Below, piece by piece: positions 1 to 9,319 of a stretch of 21,459 bases of DNA. The position numbers and the translations under genes were made by a program. How positions within the stretch are numbered: position 1 is the first letter of the stretch; each line of letters opens with the position of its first letter. The DNA lies in IMG/VR virus record IMGVR_UViG_3300032157_000048, positions 1-21,459 of that record; one strand, written 5' to 3'. The stretch is from a virus. The notes under the pieces were generated by a model. The model was not told where the DNA came from and made no database searches. It saw only the letters and a list, made by a program, of their open reading frames with translations.

Positions 1-90
1 GGTGCCCCACGACCAGATGCCGTAGACCAGGTCGCGCCATTTGCGGCGCAGCGGCGGGGTGGGGACCGTGGGGATCGGTGATTCAGGCAT
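1..90 (-). CDS. Putative holin-like small membrane protein, N-terminal fragment
   Basis: Thirty codons are visible, running off the left edge of the window. The ATG overlaps the stop of the preceding HExxH gene by 8 bases and is preceded by an AGGAAGGA Shine-Dalgarno about 5 bases away. Third codon positions are almost all G or C. The peptide is Pro-rich at first (MPESPIPTVPTPP), then has a basic patch (LRRKWRDLVYGIW) and enters an aromatic, apparently hydrophobic segment. A short Pro-rich or basic head before a membrane helix is common in actinophage holins, and the gene sits right after the cell-wall hydrolases, which fits. The membrane helices themselves lie outside the window, so holin is an inference from context. 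Confidence 0.6.
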   Translation of the reverse strand, partial: MPESPIPTVPTPPLRRKWRDLVYGIWSWGT

Positions 91-469
91 CAGAGTCCTT
101 CCTGCAGTGTTCCCAGATCCAGCGGGTGAGCCAGCCCACGAAGTACGCGGTCGGTTCGTCGGTGCCGGTCGGGGTGTGACCGATGTGGTTGAACAGTTCG
201 GAGGCTGCGTGGCTGGCCTCGTGCGCGCAGGAGTCGATCAGTTCGCCTTCGCCGTGGTGTTTCGCGACGTCGACCCAGAGGATCAGGTGCGGGACCGAGA
301 GGCCGCTGTTCGGCTCCCAGACCGCGAACTGGGCTTGCCCGGCACTGGTGGGCAGGTCCTCAACGAAGTCGAACCTGCGGCGCAGCCACGCCCACTGGCG
401 GGCATTCGTGGCGCAATACACCTCCGCCCCGTACACATCGACCGTGTGATGCGCGGGACGAGCGGTCAT
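83..469 (-). CDS. Small HExxH-motif putative zinc metallopeptidase-like phage protein
   Basis: 128 residues; the ATG overlaps the stop of the PL7 gene in an ATGA arrangement, so translation is probably coupled. The central part carries H83-E84-A-S-H87, the HExxH zinc-binding signature, in a helix (CAHEASHAA). An acidic segment about 18 residues later (DEPTAYFVGWLTRWIWE) could give the third ligand. Phage proteins with this layout (HExxH, then an acidic/aromatic helix ending in W/Y-rich residues) are widespread and mostly uncharacterised. No signal peptide or membrane segment is seen, so any activity would be cytoplasmic or released at lysis. Peptidase activity is not shown by the sequence; the motif could serve a structural metal site. 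The gene is real by codon bias, spacing and overlap. Confidence 0.8.
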   Translation of the reverse strand: MTARPAHHTVDVYGAEVYCATNARQWAWLRRRFDFVEDLPTSAGQAQFAVWEPNSGLSVPHLILWVDVAKHHGEGELIDSCAHEASHAASELFNHIGHTPTGTDEPTAYFVGWLTRWIWEHCRKDSDA

Positions 470-1353
470 GCTGCGTGCAGCACGTCGAGGTCCTCGATCC
501 GCACACCCCCGCCGGCGCCAGGCTTGTCACCCTTGGACAGGTTCGAGTTCACGTACACACCGGCCTTGAAATACGCGACCTCATCCTCGATGACGCGGTC
601 GACGTCGAGCCCGGCACCGTTCGCCTCGAGGTGGATCCCGTCCGGCGTCGCTTCGATCAGCCAGTCGAACGGCTCACCGAAGCGGACCACCGCCAGCCGG
701 CGCCGGATACTGCTACCGGGGCCGAGCGACTCGGAGAGGTACATCTGGATCAGCTGGTCGTCGATCGCGCGGGCCAAGAGCATCACGACGTCGTCGACGT
801 TGTCGTGGATCTGGCCGATCACGATCTCCGGTTTCACCACAGGTGTCTCGAGGATCGCGAACCGGCCAGTGAGTCGGTGGACGCCTTCAGCGCTCGACCA
901 GGCGGCCTTGGCGGTGCCGTCCATCTCGCGGAACTCGTCGCGGCAGTAGTTGGAGCCCGGCGTTGTCGCGCCGTCGATGGGTGCGCGCAGTTCGATCGAG
1001 CCGTCCGGGTTGCGGCGCAGCCACTCGCCGGAGTAGGTGGCCAGCTCGGGGTTCAGGATTTCCCGTGCGCGGCCGCCGGCGTCTTCAGCGGTGGTCAGTT
1101 TCCAGGGGCGCAGGTCGATCGAGAACCGTGGTGGAGGGTCCGCGAGGAGTCTGGCCAACGTTCGCGGGCCGACCAGGCCGTCGGCGCCGGTGCCTTTCCA
1201 TCCTTGGGCCAGCTGCCATGCCTGGACGCGGTCCCTGAGGTTGTGCATCAACCGGGTGGGAGGGAACCCGTGCGCGGTGAGGCGCGCATCGAGGACCGCG
1301 AACTGTGGCCCGTGCTGCTGCATCCCGAAGTCCTCGGGGCGGTAGGTCGTCAC
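466..1353 (-). CDS. Peptidoglycan-binding domain fused to PL7 (alginate-lyase family) polysaccharide lyase
   Basis: 295 residues, GTG start overlapping the M23 gene stop (GTGA). Residues about 20-72 form a peptidoglycan-binding_1-type domain (VQAWQLAQGWKG followed by DGLVGPRTLARLL). Residues about 80-295 match polysaccharide lyase family 7 by its three signature blocks: R138-D-E-F-R142 (the family R-x-E-L/F-R motif), Q181-I-H183 (QIH), and Y261-F-K-A-G-V-Y267 (YFKAGxY). In the family, Arg, Gln, His and the last Tyr form the active site that cleaves 1,4-linked uronic-acid polymers by beta-elimination; all four are present. No signal peptide is visible, so export would depend on a holin. It lies between the M23 lysin and a holin-like gene, which suggests a lysis-time or virion depolymerase against a uronate-containing envelope polymer. 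The substrate is unknown; alginate itself is not implied. Confidence 0.87.
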   Translation of the reverse strand: MTTYRPEDFGMQQHGPQFAVLDARLTAHGFPPTRLMHNLRDRVQAWQLAQGWKGTGADGLVGPRTLARLLADPPPRFSIDLRPWKLTTAEDAGGRAREILNPELATYSGEWLRRNPDGSIELRAPIDGATTPGSNYCRDEFREMDGTAKAAWSSAEGVHRLTGRFAILETPVVKPEIVIGQIHDNVDDVVMLLARAIDDQLIQMYLSESLGPGSSIRRRLAVVRFGEPFDWLIEATPDGIHLEANGAGLDVDRVIEDEVAYFKAGVYVNSNLSKGDKPGAGGGVRIEDLDVLHAA

Positions 1354-2489
1354 GGGATCACGATCCGGGCCTCGATGCGGCGGTGGTCCGACAGCTCCAG
1401 TGACGTGTTGTCCACCTGGCCGCCGGTGATCCGTGCCTGCGACGGAATGGTGAGGATGGTGCTGTAGTCCTTGCCCTTGGAGGGGAACTCGGCTAGCGAC
1501 TCGTTGGCGATCGCCGCCTGCTCCTTGAGGTCACGGAAGCCAAGAGCCCGCAGGGGTGCCATCAGCATCTGGTTGAAGTCACCGGGCAGAACCACCGGGC
1601 CGTCGACGCTCCGCACGAGGTCGGCGAGCCAGCGGCTGTATCGCGCCTTGCCGGCGTCGCCTGCCTCCTGCTTGATGGGAGCGTGCGCAGCGACGATCGC
1701 GACATGCTGGCCCGTCTGCTCGCGCTTGAGGTGCGTCACGAACGCGCCGCGGTTGGCAACACTGGACCGGTAGCCGGCCGACCAGCGGTCGATGTCCCAG
1801 CGTCCGTCTTCGGCGTAGAAGATCTCCATGCCGGCGGGGCCGCCTGCGACGGCTTGGCGGTTCGCGCGGCGGAAGTCCGGCCCGAGTGCTGTCGAGATCG
1901 TGGCGACCTGCTCGGCCGTGAACACCTCGGTGAAGACATGGATGGACGCCTCAGTGCCGACCTCGGAGCCGCGCAGCTCGCGGATGATCCCCGCCGATCG
2001 AGGTGCCCATGCACGCCCGAACCACGGCGCGTAGGCCTGAGCCCAGAACGACAGATCGAACACCGTCGCATTTCGGCTCATGGCAGGCGCAGCGGCGTCG
2101 ATGAAGCGTGGGGGCCGATCCGACTGGTAGGCCGCTGGTCCCTGCACGAACTCGGCGTAGTGCAGATGCGCGCCGGTGACGTTGCCGGTCGCGCCGGACA
2201 GGCCGAGGCGTTGTCCTGCTTCGACCTGCTGACCGGCGGTGACGTGCTCGGCCGACAGGTGCCCGTACAGGTGCCAGATGTTGCCTGTGCGGATCACGAC
2301 GTGGATGCCGAACGCGGGGCCGTAGCCGCCCCACCCTGCATGGACGACGGTGCCGCCGGTGGTCGCGACGACAGGCGTGCCGGGATCGCAGCCGTAGTCG
2401 ACGCCTCGATGGATGTACGCCGGGTTGAACCGGGCACGCTGGCGGTAGCCGAGAGTGACAGGCCAGCGGGTTGCGACAGGACGGACCAT
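1350..2489 (-). CDS. M23 peptidase fused to endonuclease/exonuclease/phosphatase-fold domain (putative endolysin)
   Basis: 379 residues. The ATG at 2489 was chosen because GAGGAG lies 8 bases upstream; a longer frame to 2552 has no such site. Residues about 20-135 are an M23/LytM metallopeptidase: H27-x3-D31 (HRGVDYG), H73-LYG-H77, and H108-L-H110, the zinc and catalytic set of Gly-Gly or stem-peptide endopeptidases. Residues about 138-379 have the endonuclease/exonuclease/phosphatase (EEP) layout: a first strand ATVFDLSFW, Glu188 in FTEVF, His269 in VAAHAP, G303-D-F-N306, and S367-D-H369 near the C-terminus. The Asn usual in the first strand is Asp here. EEP proteins cleave phosphodiesters in nucleic acids or lipids. 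The fusion is unusual for a lysin; a role on DNA or on phosphodiester-linked wall polymers is inference. Confidence 0.85.
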   Translation of the reverse strand: MVRPVATRWPVTLGYRQRARFNPAYIHRGVDYGCDPGTPVVATTGGTVVHAGWGGYGPAFGIHVVIRTGNIWHLYGHLSAEHVTAGQQVEAGQRLGLSGATGNVTGAHLHYAEFVQGPAAYQSDRPPRFIDAAAPAMSRNATVFDLSFWAQAYAPWFGRAWAPRSAGIIRELRGSEVGTEASIHVFTEVFTAEQVATISTALGPDFRRANRQAVAGGPAGMEIFYAEDGRWDIDRWSAGYRSSVANRGAFVTHLKREQTGQHVAIVAAHAPIKQEAGDAGKARYSRWLADLVRSVDGPVVLPGDFNQMLMAPLRALGFRDLKEQAAIANESLAEFPSKGKDYSTILTIPSQARITGGQVDNTSLELSDHRRIEARIVIP

Positions 2490-2659
2490 GGCGCTGTCTC
2501 CTCGAGTGAGTGTTGAAGTCGGACCCGGCCGCCGCATCCCCGGAAGGCACACGGCCTTGACCCCGCGACGGCCGGGCTTCGAGGACCGCGGATCTCACGA
2601 CGCGCGTCCCCGTGATGCCGCGCTCTGCTCGCCGGAGTGGTGGCGGCGGCGCGGACGTT

Positions 2660-2812
2660 CTACTGCAGCGAAGAGATCTGGCCGCTCACGCCGCCGAGGA
2701 CATCATTTGCGATGCCCTTGACCGTGTCCGTGGCCTTCCCCGCGTCCTCCGGGAGAGGAACGGTGGGAAGGCTTGGAACTTCGAGACGGCGGACCGTTAC
2801 CACCGCCCTCAC
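2660..2812 (-). CDS. Alternative-frame coding segment overlapping the end of the coiled-coil gene
   Basis: This frame is +1 relative to the upstream membrane/coiled-coil gene. It stays open to a TAG at 2660 and encodes a plausible tail: RRLEVPSLPTVPLPEDAG, then KATDTVKGIANDVLGG. From about 2750 leftward nearly every third base is G or C, whereas the other frame over the same bases reads His/Gly/Arg-rich low complexity. Three explanations are possible: the true C-terminus of the upstream protein reached by a +1 frameshift, a sequencing or mutational indel, or a separate 50-residue protein from the GTG at 2812. The GTG has no good ribosome binding site, which favours the first two. Confidence 0.4.
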   Translation of the reverse strand: MRAVVTVRRLEVPSLPTVPLPEDAGKATDTVKGIANDVLGGVSGQISSLQ

Positions 2813-3227
2813 TGGAACGCTGTGGCGTCGACGTCGTGCCGCTGGTGACACTCCTGCGGACGATGCGCCGTGTCGTCGACGAGGACGAGTCACCGTCACC
2901 GCTGGAACGGCGGATCGTGACACCGGCCGGGATCAGCTCAGCCGGGATGTCGTACCCCAGGCCAGTGAAGTACTCGATGAGACGTTTCTGGTTCGCGGCG
3001 ATCGCGTCGTTCTGCCGCTTCATGTCGATGAGCTGACTTTCCAGGGCGACGTTGTCACCCCTTAGGCCCTTGACGATCTCGAGCAGTTCCCCACGCTCGG
3101 CCGCGTGCGCCTTCGCCTCAACATCGCGCTGATGGGCGCCAGTCACCGACGAGTACACCACCGCGAACACGATCACCAAGACCGACAGAGCCCCGATGAT
3201 CGGCGGCCAGCGCGGCGCCTCACGCAT
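2703..3227 (-). CDS. Membrane-anchored coiled-coil protein, possibly ending in another frame
   Basis: 174 residues from the ATG at 3227, which overlaps the preceding gene's stop by 8 bases; a GTG at 3269 with GGAG about 10 bases upstream is an alternative start. The N-terminus has one membrane helix (residues about 9-28, PPIIGALSVLVIVFAVVY), followed by a charged coiled coil (about 32-85) and a segment ending DIPAELIPAG. The rest is Ser/Gly/Arg-rich low complexity. One N-terminal helix plus a coiled coil resembles inner-membrane spanin-like or holin-accessory proteins, but no specific family is recognised. Over the last 35 or so codons this frame loses the G/C third-position bias, while another frame gains it (see the 2660-2812 entry), so the written C-terminus may be wrong or may represent a frameshift. 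Confidence 0.6.
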   Translation of the reverse strand: MREAPRWPPIIGALSVLVIVFAVVYSSVTGAHQRDVEAKAHAAERGELLEIVKGLRGDNVALESQLIDMKRQNDAIAANQKRLIEYFTGLGYDIPAELIPAGVTIRRSSGDGDSSSSTTRRIVRRSVTSGTTSTPQRSSEGGGNGPPSRSSKPSHRSSPGGRGEGHGHGQGHRK

Positions 3228-3567
3228 CGCGATCTCGACCCATCTCGGTGCCGTCGTGCCGGTCCTCACGCTTCTGCCGCTCCAGTGCGGTGTACTGCCA
3301 GGTGCAACCGAGCGCCAGACCGATGTCGGAGAAGACCACCATCACGAGCAGCCACGTGGGGAACAGGTCCACGATGGACGCGACGAAAATCCAGACCAGC
3401 AGCTCGACGATCGCTTTGGCCAACACCGCACACGACTTGAAGAACAGCGCCCGGCCAACGAAGTCCGCCCGCCAACCTCGGCCGAGGCCGTATCGGGTCA
3501 CGAACAGCGACTGCGCGACCACGACGACGATCAGCAGGACGAGGGTCAAGTCTCGGATGTCGCTCAC
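3220..3567 (-). CDS. Three-helix small membrane protein, holin candidate
   Basis: 115 residues, GTG start overlapping the previous stop (GTGA), which fits translational coupling in the lysis-region operon. Three hydrophobic stretches are evident: residues about 5-23 (LTLVLLIVVVVAQSLFV), about 43-67 (FFKSCAVLAKAIVELLVWIF onward), and about 72-90 (WLLVMVVFSDIGLALGC). The C-terminus is highly charged (ERQKREDRHDG), as holins often are. Size, topology and position near wall hydrolases fit a class I-type holin or an accessory membrane protein, but several neighbours are also membrane proteins, so which one is the holin cannot be decided. Confidence 0.75.
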   Translation of the reverse strand: MSDIRDLTLVLLIVVVVAQSLFVTRYGLGRGWRADFVGRALFFKSCAVLAKAIVELLVWIFVASIVDLFPTWLLVMVVFSDIGLALGCTWQYTALERQKREDRHDGTEMGRDRDA

Positions 3568-3788
3568 CGCATTGAATCCTTCGCTCTGGCCGTCCACCCG
3601 TTGATGACGACGGTTTCGTGCCGCAGGCCGGCGTTGACCTTCTTGACCAGCGGCCACTGCGCCTTGACCCGCGCAACCTGGTCGGCTGCCTCTTGGGCGT
3701 CGACGGCCGCCTGCCGCGCGTCCTCAGCCGCCTTCTGTGCGTCGGCGGCCGCGGATGCCTCACGGAGCCGCCATGGGCGCCACCTCAT
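3564..3788 (-). CDS. Small alanine-rich helical protein (DUF7620-like)
   Basis: 74 residues; the ATG overlaps the previous stop by 4 bases (ATGA). It has a basic/aromatic N-terminus (MRWRPWRLRE), then an Ala/Asp/Gln-rich heptad-like helix (residues about 11-40), and ends VVINGWTARAKDSMR. No membrane segment. The layout resembles small actinophage proteins of the DUF7620 type found beside lysis or tail-tip genes, whose role is unknown; that family assignment is from memory of the pattern only. The overlaps on both sides place it firmly in the operon. Confidence 0.7.
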   Translation of the reverse strand: MRWRPWRLREASAAADAQKAAEDARQAAVDAQEAADQVARVKAQWPLVKKVNAGLRHETVVINGWTARAKDSMR

Positions 3789-4087
3789 CGCTTTGCCTCC
3801 ATCGCCACTCGGAGCCCTTCGACGACGTGCGTGATGGTGCGGTTTGCTTGAATCAGATCGCTGTTCTGCTTCAGCGCCTCCGTCAACGCCTCCTCCTTGG
3901 CCTTGAGCTGGGAGTCCTTCGCCGCGATCTGTGCGTCCCTGGAGTCGAGTTGTGAGAGGACGAACCGGTACTCGGTGTCGGTGTGGATGTTGCCTCTCAT
4001 CAGCAGCCACCACGAGGTGACGAGGAGGGTGGTGATGATCGCGACGACACCGACGCCTTGGAAGAGGCCGGGTGGGAGGAAGTCCAT
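3785..4087 (-). CDS. Small membrane protein with one helix and coiled coil
   Basis: 100 residues. An N-terminal membrane helix (residues about 11-30, GVVAIITTLLVTSWWLLM) is followed by a charged, Gln/Lys/Glu-rich coiled coil (about 40-80, with DSRDAQIAAKDSQLKAKEEA). The single-helix N-in or N-out topology with a coiled-coil tail is like i-spanins or membrane-anchored accessory lysis proteins. It is the same general architecture as the gene at 2703-3227, so the two may interact or may be diverged copies; identity is too low to decide by eye. It starts 3 bases after the upstream gene ends and overlaps the next gene by 4 bases. Confidence 0.75.
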   Translation of the reverse strand: MDFLPPGLFQGVGVVAIITTLLVTSWWLLMRGNIHTDTEYRFVLSQLDSRDAQIAAKDSQLKAKEEALTEALKQNSDLIQANRTITHVVEGLRVAMEAKR

Positions 4088-4385: not shown

Positions 4386-5228
4386 TCACCCGCACGGGTT
4401 GTTCGGAGTCGGGCCCGGGGCCGGCGTCGACCCGCCAGTCGACGGGGCGGACTGCCACGGCCAGTACGCGGACGGCAGCGCCACGTTGTAGAACGCAGCA
4501 CCGGCACCTTCGGACGTGATCCAGAACGACAGGCCGTCGCGGGCCATCGTGATGCCCTCAGGCTTCACCTGTGACGGCACGCTGACGGTGTCAACGAGGG
4601 CCCAGCTCGTGGCGTCGTGGACGAACACGATCGTGTTGTGGCCCTCGCGGCGGAACAGCACGAACCGGCCATCGAGGGTGAACGTGCCATCTGACACGTC
4701 CGACGGCATCGCCTGCGGCTGCCGCACGCACTTGTTCTTCACCCCCGACTGCAGAGCAGCCGGCAGCAGGTACAGGCGCCCGTTCCCGCCGGCCTTCTTG
4801 GTCACGATGTAGCGGGCCTGAGTCACCGGGTGGATCAGGAAGCACTCGGCGTTCTTCGCCCCGTCGTCCTTGCCCTTGGCGTTGACGTACTTGATCGGGT
4901 ACTTGGTGCGAGCGAGCGCGCCTTGGCCGGTGCCGAGTCCGGGTTCGGGACGCATGAAGATCGCGCAGTTGTCCCGGTTCCCGTCGTTGTCGCCGATGTC
5001 GGCGTACCAGAGGCGACCTTGGTTGTCGACGCAGATCGCTTCGGGGTCGGTGATGCTGCCACCGTTCGCCCAGGAGAAGTCGATGACGGTGTCGCCGGTG
5101 ACGGTGGAGACACCGAACACGTGTGGGGTCGTGTTCTCGTCGTTGCACGTGTAGAGCACGTTCGCGTGGACGACGGACATCGCGGCCGATGAGGCTTCGT
5201 CGATCCGGCCATCAGTGAACGCGACCAT
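4386..5228 (-). CDS. Beta-propeller-like tail-tip protein, putative receptor-binding or fibre component
   Basis: 280 residues starting 5 bases after the fibre-like gene. Repeated strands of the propeller type are seen: SITDPEAICVDNQGRLWYADIGDND, later GTFTLDGRFVLFRREG, and KPEGITMARDGLSFWITSE, each with the D-x-G-x-L/F-W/Y pattern of propeller blades. The DIGDND..NR segment is typical of a host-type family of secreted bacterial beta-propellers. The C-terminus is a Pro/Ser/Gly-rich tail (STGGSTPAPGPTPNNPCG). There is no signal peptide, as expected for a virion protein. Lying last in the tail-tip block, it is probably a receptor- or glycan-binding accessory. It differs in sequence from the NHL propeller further upstream, so the two seem independently acquired. 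Confidence 0.7.
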   Translation of the reverse strand: MVAFTDGRIDEASSAAMSVVHANVLYTCNDENTTPHVFGVSTVTGDTVIDFSWANGGSITDPEAICVDNQGRLWYADIGDNDGNRDNCAIFMRPEPGLGTGQGALARTKYPIKYVNAKGKDDGAKNAECFLIHPVTQARYIVTKKAGGNGRLYLLPAALQSGVKNKCVRQPQAMPSDVSDGTFTLDGRFVLFRREGHNTIVFVHDATSWALVDTVSVPSQVKPEGITMARDGLSFWITSEGAGAAFYNVALPSAYWPWQSAPSTGGSTPAPGPTPNNPCG

Positions 5229-7159: not shown

Positions 7160-9319
7160 CTATCCGGTCAGACGTTGGAGGTAGGTGCGGCCGCTGTTGA
7201 CGGCGTCGCCGTACGTGCCGCCCGCGATGACGTCGTCGGCGTAAGTGCGACCGAAACTGGCCTCGATCACCGGTGTCCGTACCGGTGTCAGCAGAAGAGT
7301 TATGGTCGATTCCTGCCCTCGGTCGAGGGTGGGCAGGTCGCGGCGTTCGATGGTGACGTCACCGACGGAGAACCAGCCTTCCGGCAAGTCCAGGTCCCAT
7401 GAGCTTGGGGACCGCAACAGCACAGGATCGTTCGACTTCAATGGCGCGAGGACAAGGTCGCGGGCGTCGAAGTCGGCAGTGAAGAGTTGAAGCGTCCGGT
7501 CGGGGATTCGCCGCGGCCCAGACGTGACGACCACTGGCAGGTCGGAGCCTTCGATCTCCAGAACGTTGCGGCCGCTCGCCGGCGATGTCAGCGACTGGGA
7601 AGTCTGCTCGGTGATGTAGACGTCGCCTTCGACACCGTCGGGTCCGGTGTCGATCTTGACCGACAGATTCGGTGTGGTCGGGTGGATGAGCCAGGCAGCG
7701 GCGCCCACGAGGGTTTCTGTGTCGGAGCCGAACACCGGGGTTGGCGAGGGCGGCGTGAGCGTGACGGTGACGTCGTCGACGACTGCCGCCTGCTGGCTCG
7801 CCCCGAACTTCCGGATCGTGAACGCCGAGACGTCGGTGACATAGACGGCGCCGGCGCTGTCGGTTGTGACGGCGTACGGGTTGGCGAAGCGGGTGCCGCC
7901 CGAGACGGTGCCGTCGAACGAGTAGAGGAACGTGCCGGTGTTGGAGAACTTCTGGATCCGGTCGTTGAAGTTGGTGTCGGCGACGTAGATCTTGTCGGAA
8001 GCGTCGGCGCGAATCCCGACGGGGAATCTGAACTGGCCTTCGCCGATGCCCTTGGTGCCCCACTTCGTTTGCCAGACACCGGAGGAGTTGAACTTCTGGA
8101 CTCGATGCCCGCCGCTCAGGTCGTCCGCACCGTACTCGGCGACGTACACGTTGTTCGACGAGTCGCTGGTGATTCCGGTCGGGTATCGGAATGCGCCGTC
8201 GGCGGTACCGAATGACCCGAACTTGAGTTGGAACACGCCTGCGCTGTTGAACTTCTGGACGCGGTGCCCGTTGAACTCGGTGACCCAAATGAAGCCGGCC
8301 GAGTCGACGCAGATACCGAGCGGCAGATTGAACTGCCCATCGCCTGAGCCAGCGGTCCCGAACTTCGACGAGTAGACGTAGGTGCCGCCCGAGGGTACGA
8401 ACTTCTGGACTCGGTTGTTGCCGCCGTCCGTGATCCACATGTTGTCGGAAGCGTCGAAGGCGATATTGCGGGGCGCGTTGAATTGGCCGTTGCCCGTGCC
8501 ATAGCTGCCAAACGACAACTGGTAGACGCCGGCCGAGTTGAACTTGTGGATTCGGTGGCCGTAGAAGTCGACTGCCCAGATGTCGCCGGCCGAGTCGATC
8601 GCGACGTCAAAGGCGGCAAAGTTCAGGTCCGTAGTGAAGGGCAGCCCGGTATCCCAAGCCGAAGGGAATGACAGCGACTGGGCGGGGTCGCCCAGCGCGG
8701 CCACGAGTTGCACCTTCGTCGGGACACCTGAGTACGTCGTCGAGATCGCCGTGTACGACGCTCCGGCCAACGTGACAGTGCCGCCGGAGAACATCATCGA
8801 GAAGGCACCCGAACCTGCGGCGACCACCGGAGACCCGGAGCCTGTGAGGACGACTTGGTTGCCCACGACCGAAGCAGTTGCAATCACAACGTCGGAGGCG
8901 TCAAGGATCCGCACGGTCGTCCAGTCGACGTCGAGGGAATCCAAGGAACCGATCGTGCCGGCGGCCGTGCGGGTGATGGTGGCGCCGTCGGTCGACGACG
9001 TTGCGGTACCTGGCGATGCAGACCAGCCTGCGACCGTCGCCGTCCACGACGACAGGTTCGACCACGTCTCGATGAAGCCTGGCGTGACCGTGAGGACCTC
9101 GGCGTCGACGGTGTAGACGCACGCCTGGTCGTAAGGGGCGTCGTAGTCGTAGACCACCGACACGCTCGACCCAAGCGGAGCGACCGCGCGGATCGGGACC
9201 CCGTCACGGCGGACGACGATCGACGTGAAGGTCGACATCAGGTCTTCGGTATCGAGGTCCAGGCGCATCCGCGGCGGTTCCTCGAGCGGGGCCGGTTCAG
9301 CGGTGACGGTGAACAGCAT
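7160..9319 (-). CDS. Distal-tail-type minor tail protein with inserted six-blade NHL propeller
   Basis: 719 residues, ATG overlapping the tape-measure stop by one base (TGATG). Residues 1-80 (RDGVPIRAVAPLGSSVSVVY, YDQACVYTV) and about 525-719 (AAWLIHPTTPNLSV, DVTIERRDLPTLDRGQEST, SFGRTYADDVIAGGTYGDAV) are the two halves of a common actinophage minor tail protein that usually lies directly after the tape measure. Between them sit a Ser/Thr/Ala-rich beta region (about 85-225) and six NHL-type repeats (about 236-504). These have recurrent D-S-A-G-x-I/V-W/Y-V, R-V/I-Q-K-F-N-S-x-G-V and G-x-F-x-x-P elements. Six repeats would close a six-blade propeller, a fold used for binding proteins or glycans. 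It is probably displayed at the tail tip as an adsorption module; the ligand is unknown. Confidence 0.85.
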   Translation of the reverse strand: MLFTVTAEPAPLEEPPRMRLDLDTEDLMSTFTSIVVRRDGVPIRAVAPLGSSVSVVYDYDAPYDQACVYTVDAEVLTVTPGFIETWSNLSSWTATVAGWSASPGTATSSTDGATITRTAAGTIGSLDSLDVDWTTVRILDASDVVIATASVVGNQVVLTGSGSPVVAAGSGAFSMMFSGGTVTLAGASYTAISTTYSGVPTKVQLVAALGDPAQSLSFPSAWDTGLPFTTDLNFAAFDVAIDSAGDIWAVDFYGHRIHKFNSAGVYQLSFGSYGTGNGQFNAPRNIAFDASDNMWITDGGNNRVQKFVPSGGTYVYSSKFGTAGSGDGQFNLPLGICVDSAGFIWVTEFNGHRVQKFNSAGVFQLKFGSFGTADGAFRYPTGITSDSSNNVYVAEYGADDLSGGHRVQKFNSSGVWQTKWGTKGIGEGQFRFPVGIRADASDKIYVADTNFNDRIQKFSNTGTFLYSFDGTVSGGTRFANPYAVTTDSAGAVYVTDVSAFTIRKFGASQQAAVVDDVTVTLTPPSPTPVFGSDTETLVGAAAWLIHPTTPNLSVKIDTGPDGVEGDVYITEQTSQSLTSPASGRNVLEIEGSDLPVVVTSGPRRIPDRTLQLFTADFDARDLVLAPLKSNDPVLLRSPSSWDLDLPEGWFSVGDVTIERRDLPTLDRGQESTITLLLTPVRTPVIEASFGRTYADDVIAGGTYGDAVNSGRTYLQRLTG
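7800..8640 (-). repeat. DNA-level imperfect tandem repeats encoding NHL blades
   Basis: The block aacttctgga (plus strand, encoding the start of the QKF motif) recurs at 7947, 8091, 8250 and 8400, with a one-base variant at 8541. The spacings are 144, 159, 150 and 141 bases, all multiples of three. Neighbouring words such as gttgaacttctgga and cgatgcccg/cggtgcccg also recur. The retained nucleotide identity points to duplication of blades by recombination, and the unequal lengths show in-frame insertions within blades. Confidence 0.85.

Follow-up and report, generated by a model that had tools for sequence, protein, structure and literature searches.

A PL7 lyase domain joined to an endolysin-type peptidoglycan-binding domain in the predicted lysis cassette of an uncultivated phage

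Gene order and the lysis region

The DNA described here, called the window throughout, is the whole IMG/VR record IMGVR_UViG_3300032157_000048 with a length of 21,459 bases, and probably represents part of a phage genome. Its minus-strand gene order starts with the portal, a minor head protein and two matches to head maturation protease or major head families, continues with tail genes, the tape measure, distal tail genes and beta-propeller proteins, and ends with small membrane proteins, an M23 peptidase gene, the gene of main interest, a phrog_1365 gene and a further gene at the window end. The last four genes are linked by overlaps of 4 to 8 bases. The features needed for the interpretation are as follows.

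1..90, minus strand: beginning of another gene (MPESPIPTVPTPPLRRKWRDLVYGIWSWGT...), cut by the window end, as read from the sequence
83..469, minus strand: 128-residue protein, phrog_1365 (unknown function; PHROG E = 2.8e-10), with a HEASH (HExxH-type) motif found by reading
466..1353, minus strand: PGBD-PL7 gene, 295 residues, GTG start at 1353 (PF08787, PHROG endolysin PGBD, AlphaFold2 and PDB fold matches)
475..1119, minus strand: PL7 lyase domain, residues 79-293, with R138, E140, R142, Q181, H183, K263 and Y267
1135..1329, minus strand: peptidoglycan-binding domain (PGBD), residues 9-73 (tblastn, PHROG 17214, PG_binding_1 below threshold, likeness to contig L004)
1350..2552, minus strand: partner lysin gene, 400 residues, with an M23 peptidase (about 2154-2414) and an EEP-type domain (about 1353-2084)
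2703..3269, minus strand: one predicted membrane segment and a coiled-coil-like stretch (hydropathy), candidate lysis accessory protein
3785..4087, minus strand: 100-residue protein with an N-terminal membrane segment (hydropathy), candidate holin or accessory protein

The plus-strand frame at 466-1353 is nonsense and the coding strand is the minus strand. A chance or artefactual reading frame was ruled out by the PF08787 match (E = 9.8e-29), the unbroken frame and a codon composition like that of the neighbouring genes. Directly upstream the partner gene overlaps the start of the PGBD-PL7 gene by 4 bases, and its M23 peptidase occupies residues 47-133 (Pfam E = 5.6e-23). On the other side the phrog_1365 gene overlaps the stop, again by 4 bases; tblastn with its product matched nothing in the phage collection, and the protein is possibly a metallopeptidase-like lysis protein. 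No holin profile was matched in the window, and the N-terminus encoded at 1-90 may, at a guess, be holin-like. A preliminary description of this DNA had placed the gene in a phage lysis region. This is borne out by the M23 gene directly upstream, the overlapping genes, the position after the tail genes and the small membrane proteins nearby, which together support a lysis cassette.

The beta-propeller encoded at 4386-5228 (minus strand) gave only short matches in the PDB, nearly all of them to designed Pizza propellers. Flanked by the tape measure and a tail protein gene, positions 7160-9319 (minus strand) encode a 719-residue protein in which Pfam recognises NHL propeller repeats (5.1e-34).

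The host is probably an actinobacterium. The preliminary description had spoken of an actinophage, which is likely in view of the tape measure, which compares at 44% with that of Brevibacterium phages, and of a PGBD shared with Streptomyces phages; the GC content of the window is 66%. The assignment is not secure because for the tape measure and major head protein still closer relatives are found in a Microcystis phage and in contigs from the human gut. Prophages were sought with the EEP and PGBD-PL7 sequences, for each in 395 genomes from the classes to which two actinobacterial genomes belong; weak partial EEP matches and separate PGBD or PL7 matches were all that came up, and no fusion.

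The two domains of the fusion protein

Residues 79-293 match the Pfam profile PF08787 (Alginate_lyase2) over its full length (positions 1-225 of 225) with E = 9.8e-29, and with a score of 101 bits against a curated cut-off of 29.7 the match is far beyond chance. The blocks RxExR, QxH and YxKxGxY with the catalytic arginine, glutamine, histidine and tyrosine are all present, as RDEFREM from residue 138, QIHD from 181 and YFKAGVY from 261, so that R138, Q181, H183 and Y267 stand exactly where the preliminary description had put them, in intact blocks behind a PGBD. By alignment R138, E140, R142, Q181, H183, K263 and Y267 correspond to R146, E148, R150, Q189, H191, K280 and Y284 of Sphingomonas A1-II', and these seven active-site residues are identical in all 58 aligned PL7 sequences. 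Matches to the domain were obtained with phmmer for AlgAT5 (1.5e-24), a Corynebacterium polyguluronate lyase (4.3e-21), A1-II' and, more weakly, a glucuronan lyase.

An AlphaFold2 model of the protein, calculated from 61 aligned sequences, reached a mean pLDDT of 92.4 and predicts an all-helical domain at residues 6-70 followed by a beta-rich domain. In a Foldseek search of the PDB with this model all top matches were PL7 lyases (5zqi, 1vav, 1uai, 2cws) with TM scores by target of 0.80-0.87, the best being 5zqi (E = 2e-20, TM 0.86 by target length). Profile search and structure prediction, both proposed in the preliminary description, thus place the domain inside PL7; at the level of sequence and model it is confirmed as genuine PL7, its predicted active site being intact. 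The domain departs from the family in RDEF for RSEL and WKLTTAED for WKLTLP. In the PL7 tree it forms a long branch which is not firmly placed, its nearest relative by path being the domain of L004, a second viral contig described below. The long branch together with RDEF for RSEL suggests that the specificity may have shifted.

The N-terminal 75 residues or so match PHROG endolysin family 17214 (E = 1.9e-6), and a tblastn search with this domain found 20 Streptomyces phage records in which the matched feature is annotated as endolysin, with E values down to 5e-7. Matches to PG_binding_1 (E = 0.004) and to NF038080 PG_bind_siph (E = 6.5e-6) were below the cut-offs, and the domain is 58% identical to that of L004. 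By sequence it is an endolysin-type PGBD with predicted binding to peptidoglycan. No catalytic domain cleaving peptidoglycan was found in the 295-residue protein, in which PF08787 is the sole Pfam domain, the M23 domain belonging to the neighbouring gene. The protein was therefore classed as a lysis-associated lyase and not as an endolysin. By hydropathy it has neither a signal peptide nor a hydrophobic or membrane segment. Many bacterial PL7 reading frames, unlike the window protein, start with an apparent secretion signal as judged by eye.

Among 140 PL7 reading frames, some of them duplicated across overlapping loci, PGBD and PL7 occur together only in the window and in L004. A third such row proved to be a plain endolysin with a weak and spurious match to the PL7 profile.

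The partner gene and PL7 domains in other viruses

The C-terminal half of the partner protein found no Pfam match. It was read as an endonuclease/exonuclease/phosphatase (EEP) domain because it is homologous to the product of L004 6447-7604 (plus strand), which matches Exo_endo_phos PF03372 above the curated cut-off and is 36% identical to the window protein over 250 residues (E = 4e-34). The motif-I asparagine of the L004 domain (WNVA) is not kept in the window copy. The AlphaFold2 model of the M23-EEP protein, with a pLDDT of 28, was left out of the reading.

Directly downstream of its EEP gene L004 carries a PGBD-PL7 protein which is 45% identical to that of the window over 282 residues (E = 1e-68). 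Otherwise it is a different phage, with a phrog_1357 major head protein, an SU10-type adaptor (weak match) and other tail genes, and here the two genes are flanked by those for the major head protein and the adaptor. Since this second phage has the same architecture, the fusion is not a one-off chimera or assembly error; an assembly chimera as the main reading was ruled out by the same fusion with the same neighbour. The peptidase part joined to the EEP domain differs, being M23 in the window and a family-unassigned domain in L004, for which no tblastn match was found in phages and which from its His/Asp pattern alone is presumed to be an M15-like peptidase. As the EEP and PGBD-PL7 parts remain paired in two phages that differ in backbone and in peptidase, the sequences make peptidase-EEP and PGBD-PL7 a two-gene module conserved across unrelated phage backbones.

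A further contig, L109, encodes at 3-962 (plus strand) the same PGBD family fused to a domain read as EEP-like, which found no Pfam EEP match; the neighbouring genes encode a membrane protein and what read as a terminase and a portal. In the phage lysis-region proteins at window 1350-2552, L004 6447-7604 and L109 3-962 a wall peptidase or PGBD is joined to an EEP-type domain, of nuclease or phosphodiesterase kind. None of the 50,697 phage records matched these EEP domains. When viral contigs were scanned for EEP with two short patterns per scan, only the L004 contig came back, so that absence is weak evidence.

PL7 itself was found in none of the 50,697 phage records in tblastn searches with four PL7 domain queries from four phages. 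IMG/VR pattern scans revealed it on at least 22 uncultivated viral contigs (21 loci and one more), two of which share the same protein. Many of these viral domains lie within large proteins, several of tail- or spike-like appearance. Eleven of them (L008, L012-L016, L018-L022) form a purely viral clade (100/99) apart from all bacterial PL7 sampled, and by its sequences this clade is a family of predicted phage PL7 depolymerases that has carried no label. Many of its members are in large tail- or spike-like proteins. A fold search of BFVD gave giant-virus alginate lyases as the two best matches and phage proteins at much weaker similarity.

Other arrangements also occur. In L002 the gene for a stand-alone PL7 protein directly precedes one whose product has several hydrophobic stretches, an arrangement in line with a role in lysis. 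L010 7929-10079 (plus strand) combines PL7 with a right-handed-repeat-like and a phosphoglycerate-mutase-like stretch; this contig is classed as viral and may not be phage. In L005 5946-8627 (plus strand) PL7 is fused to a beta-propeller in a large tail-like protein, and the propeller is homologous to the product of window gene 4386-5228 (29% over 258 residues, E = 1e-21). Propeller lectins of Streptomyces umbrella toxins bind teichuronic acid (PMC13274773), and the propellers of the window and L005 could therefore be receptor-binding.

Among bacteria, several divergent PL7 genes per genome were seen in Pseudonocardia (L026, L027, L033, L034, L035, L037, L042, L044, L067, L070, L075, L078, L080, L092), which is puzzling for a non-marine actinomycete genus.

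With the known PL7 enzymes (AlgAT5 5zqi, ALY-1 1uai, A1-II' 2cws, glucuronan lyase 7nde) the window protein shares the fold, the full-length profile and the catalytic-site residues; it differs from them in being phage-borne, lacking a secretion signal, being fused to an endolysin PGBD and residing in a lysis operon. Actinophage endolysins with a C-terminal PGBD, as in Streptomyces phages Puginator, Salutena and Marav, have the same PGBD family in a similar post-tail position, the Puginator endolysin gene following minor tail genes as in the window. These act on peptidoglycan (one, for example, being annotated as amidase), whereas the window PGBD is N-terminal and joined to a predicted uronate lyase. 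Tail fibre and spike depolymerases likewise are phage enzymes against host acidic polysaccharides, but the window protein lacks tail-protein architecture and has a wall-binding domain and lysis-gene neighbours. The tail or spike PL7 domains of uncultivated phages (L005, L008, L012-L016, L019 and others) have complete PL7 motifs like the window, but are mostly parts of large proteins and none has its PGBD.

One review mentions phage alginate lyases solely as enzyme activities reported for phages of Pseudomonas and Azotobacter (PMC5380687). PL7 and PL6 genes of viruses have been classed as auxiliary metabolic genes (PMC9948696, PMC12285232), and a Curtobacterium prophage depolymerase has been compared with a PL39 enzyme, not with PL7 (PMC9862828). 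In the open-access literature neither a description of PL7 joined to a PGBD or in a lysis cassette nor a PL7 lysin was found. That PGBD-PL7 in a lysis cassette is without counterpart in the isolated phages of the collection searched (50,697 records) is supported.

Proposed function and alternative readings

We give about an even chance to the proposal that PGBD-PL7 is a lysis-cassette lyase which cuts a wall-linked uronate polymer by beta-elimination. Once a holin has opened the membrane, PGBD-PL7 and the other lysis proteins would reach the wall, where the PGBD would hold the enzyme on peptidoglycan. The PL7 domain would then cut the wall-attached uronate polymer and leave a 4,5-unsaturated uronate end, with tyrosine and histidine as acid and base and with glutamine and arginine holding the carboxylate. 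Meanwhile the M23 domain would open peptide cross-links, and the EEP domain may cut a phosphodiester in teichoic acid, in its linkage unit or in released DNA.

Actinomycete walls contain acidic glycopolymers besides peptidoglycan, and mannuronate-cleaving PL7 lyases process 4-substituted beta-mannuronate residues. By analogy the polymer cut would most likely be a teichuronic acid of an actinomycete. Teichuronic acids with 4-substituted ManNAc3NAcA occur in Streptomyces and other Actinomycetota, the repeat of the S. griseus polymer being ->3)GalNAc-alpha(1->4)-ManNAc3NAcA-beta(1-> (PMC13274773). A polymer of the S. griseus type is favoured because its ManNAc3NAcA is a beta-linked, 4-substituted residue of mannuronate type, the geometry handled by mannuronate lyases. 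Against the teichuronate reading counts that the characterised PL7 enzymes known to us have alginate or glucuronan as substrates and not N-acetylated uronates.

A rather unlikely alternative is that PGBD-PL7 is a virion enzyme on the tail which clears a surface uronate polymer of wall or capsule at adsorption or entry. The prevalence of large tail- or spike-like proteins among viral PL7, with eleven domains in one viral clade, speaks for such a role and against lysis, as does L005, where the fusion to a propeller homologous to that at window 4386-5228 keeps a virion function in play; the window gene also lies downstream of tail genes, and the L004 module between major head protein and adaptor genes. 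However, Pfam and PHROGs revealed no tail-attachment domain in the 295-residue protein, the remainder of which is an endolysin-type PGBD, and the overlapping neighbour is an M23-EEP protein and not a tail protein. For the window gene the PGBD and the peptidase-EEP neighbour, which is conserved in L004, tip the balance towards lysis, while PL7 in tail-like proteins leaves some weight with the virion.

It is distinctly unlikely that the enzyme acts after lysis on an extracellular matrix or capsule of alginate or glucuronan type, freeing the progeny, and not on the wall. Alginate and glucuronan are indeed degraded by characterised PL7 enzymes, and in Curtobacterium prophages a link of depolymerase genes to lysis has been proposed (PMC9862828), but the PGBD would tie the enzyme to the wall. 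A non-catalytic PL7 module which helps a lysin to hold acidic wall polymers would fit the divergent sequence, the long branch, RDEF for RSEL and the lost WKLTLP motif; it is very improbable, as all seven catalytic-site residues persist in the window, L004 and each aligned relative, although a binding module could do without them. An auxiliary metabolic gene releasing sugars for the host, a role for which PL7 has been listed among soil viruses, many of them predicted on Actinomycetia among others (PMC9948696), is scarcely credible for a protein with no signal peptide, an endolysin PGBD fusion and an overlapping wall peptidase gene, in a pair conserved in another phage.

The preliminary description had further suggested a new class of actinophage envelope depolymerase acting at lysis or from the virion, which holds in outline, though it made no mention of the M23-EEP partner, of that pairing in L004 or of PL7 in tail-like phage proteins. 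In favour stand the intact PL7 domain, the PGBD, the lysis cassette and the lack of such a protein in the isolated phages searched; the lyase activity and its polymer are predictions. Returning to the wall-directed lyase, we tentatively put forward, at well below even chances, a transferable actinophage two-gene lysis module in which the peptidase would act against peptidoglycan, EEP against teichoic acid or its linkage and PL7 against teichuronic acid. We know of no phage enzyme that removes teichuronic acids.

With PL7 in none of 50,697 phage records but on at least 22 uncultivated viral contigs, isolated phages may under-sample lysis chemistry. If true, the three-polymer module would include what to our knowledge would be the first genetically identified phage teichuronic acid lyase and would define a new class of endolysin partner. 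A lyase acting as predicted would open a neglected class of polymers to enzymatic tests, could serve in studies of their structure, and would explain how phages breach walls with acidic glycopolymers.
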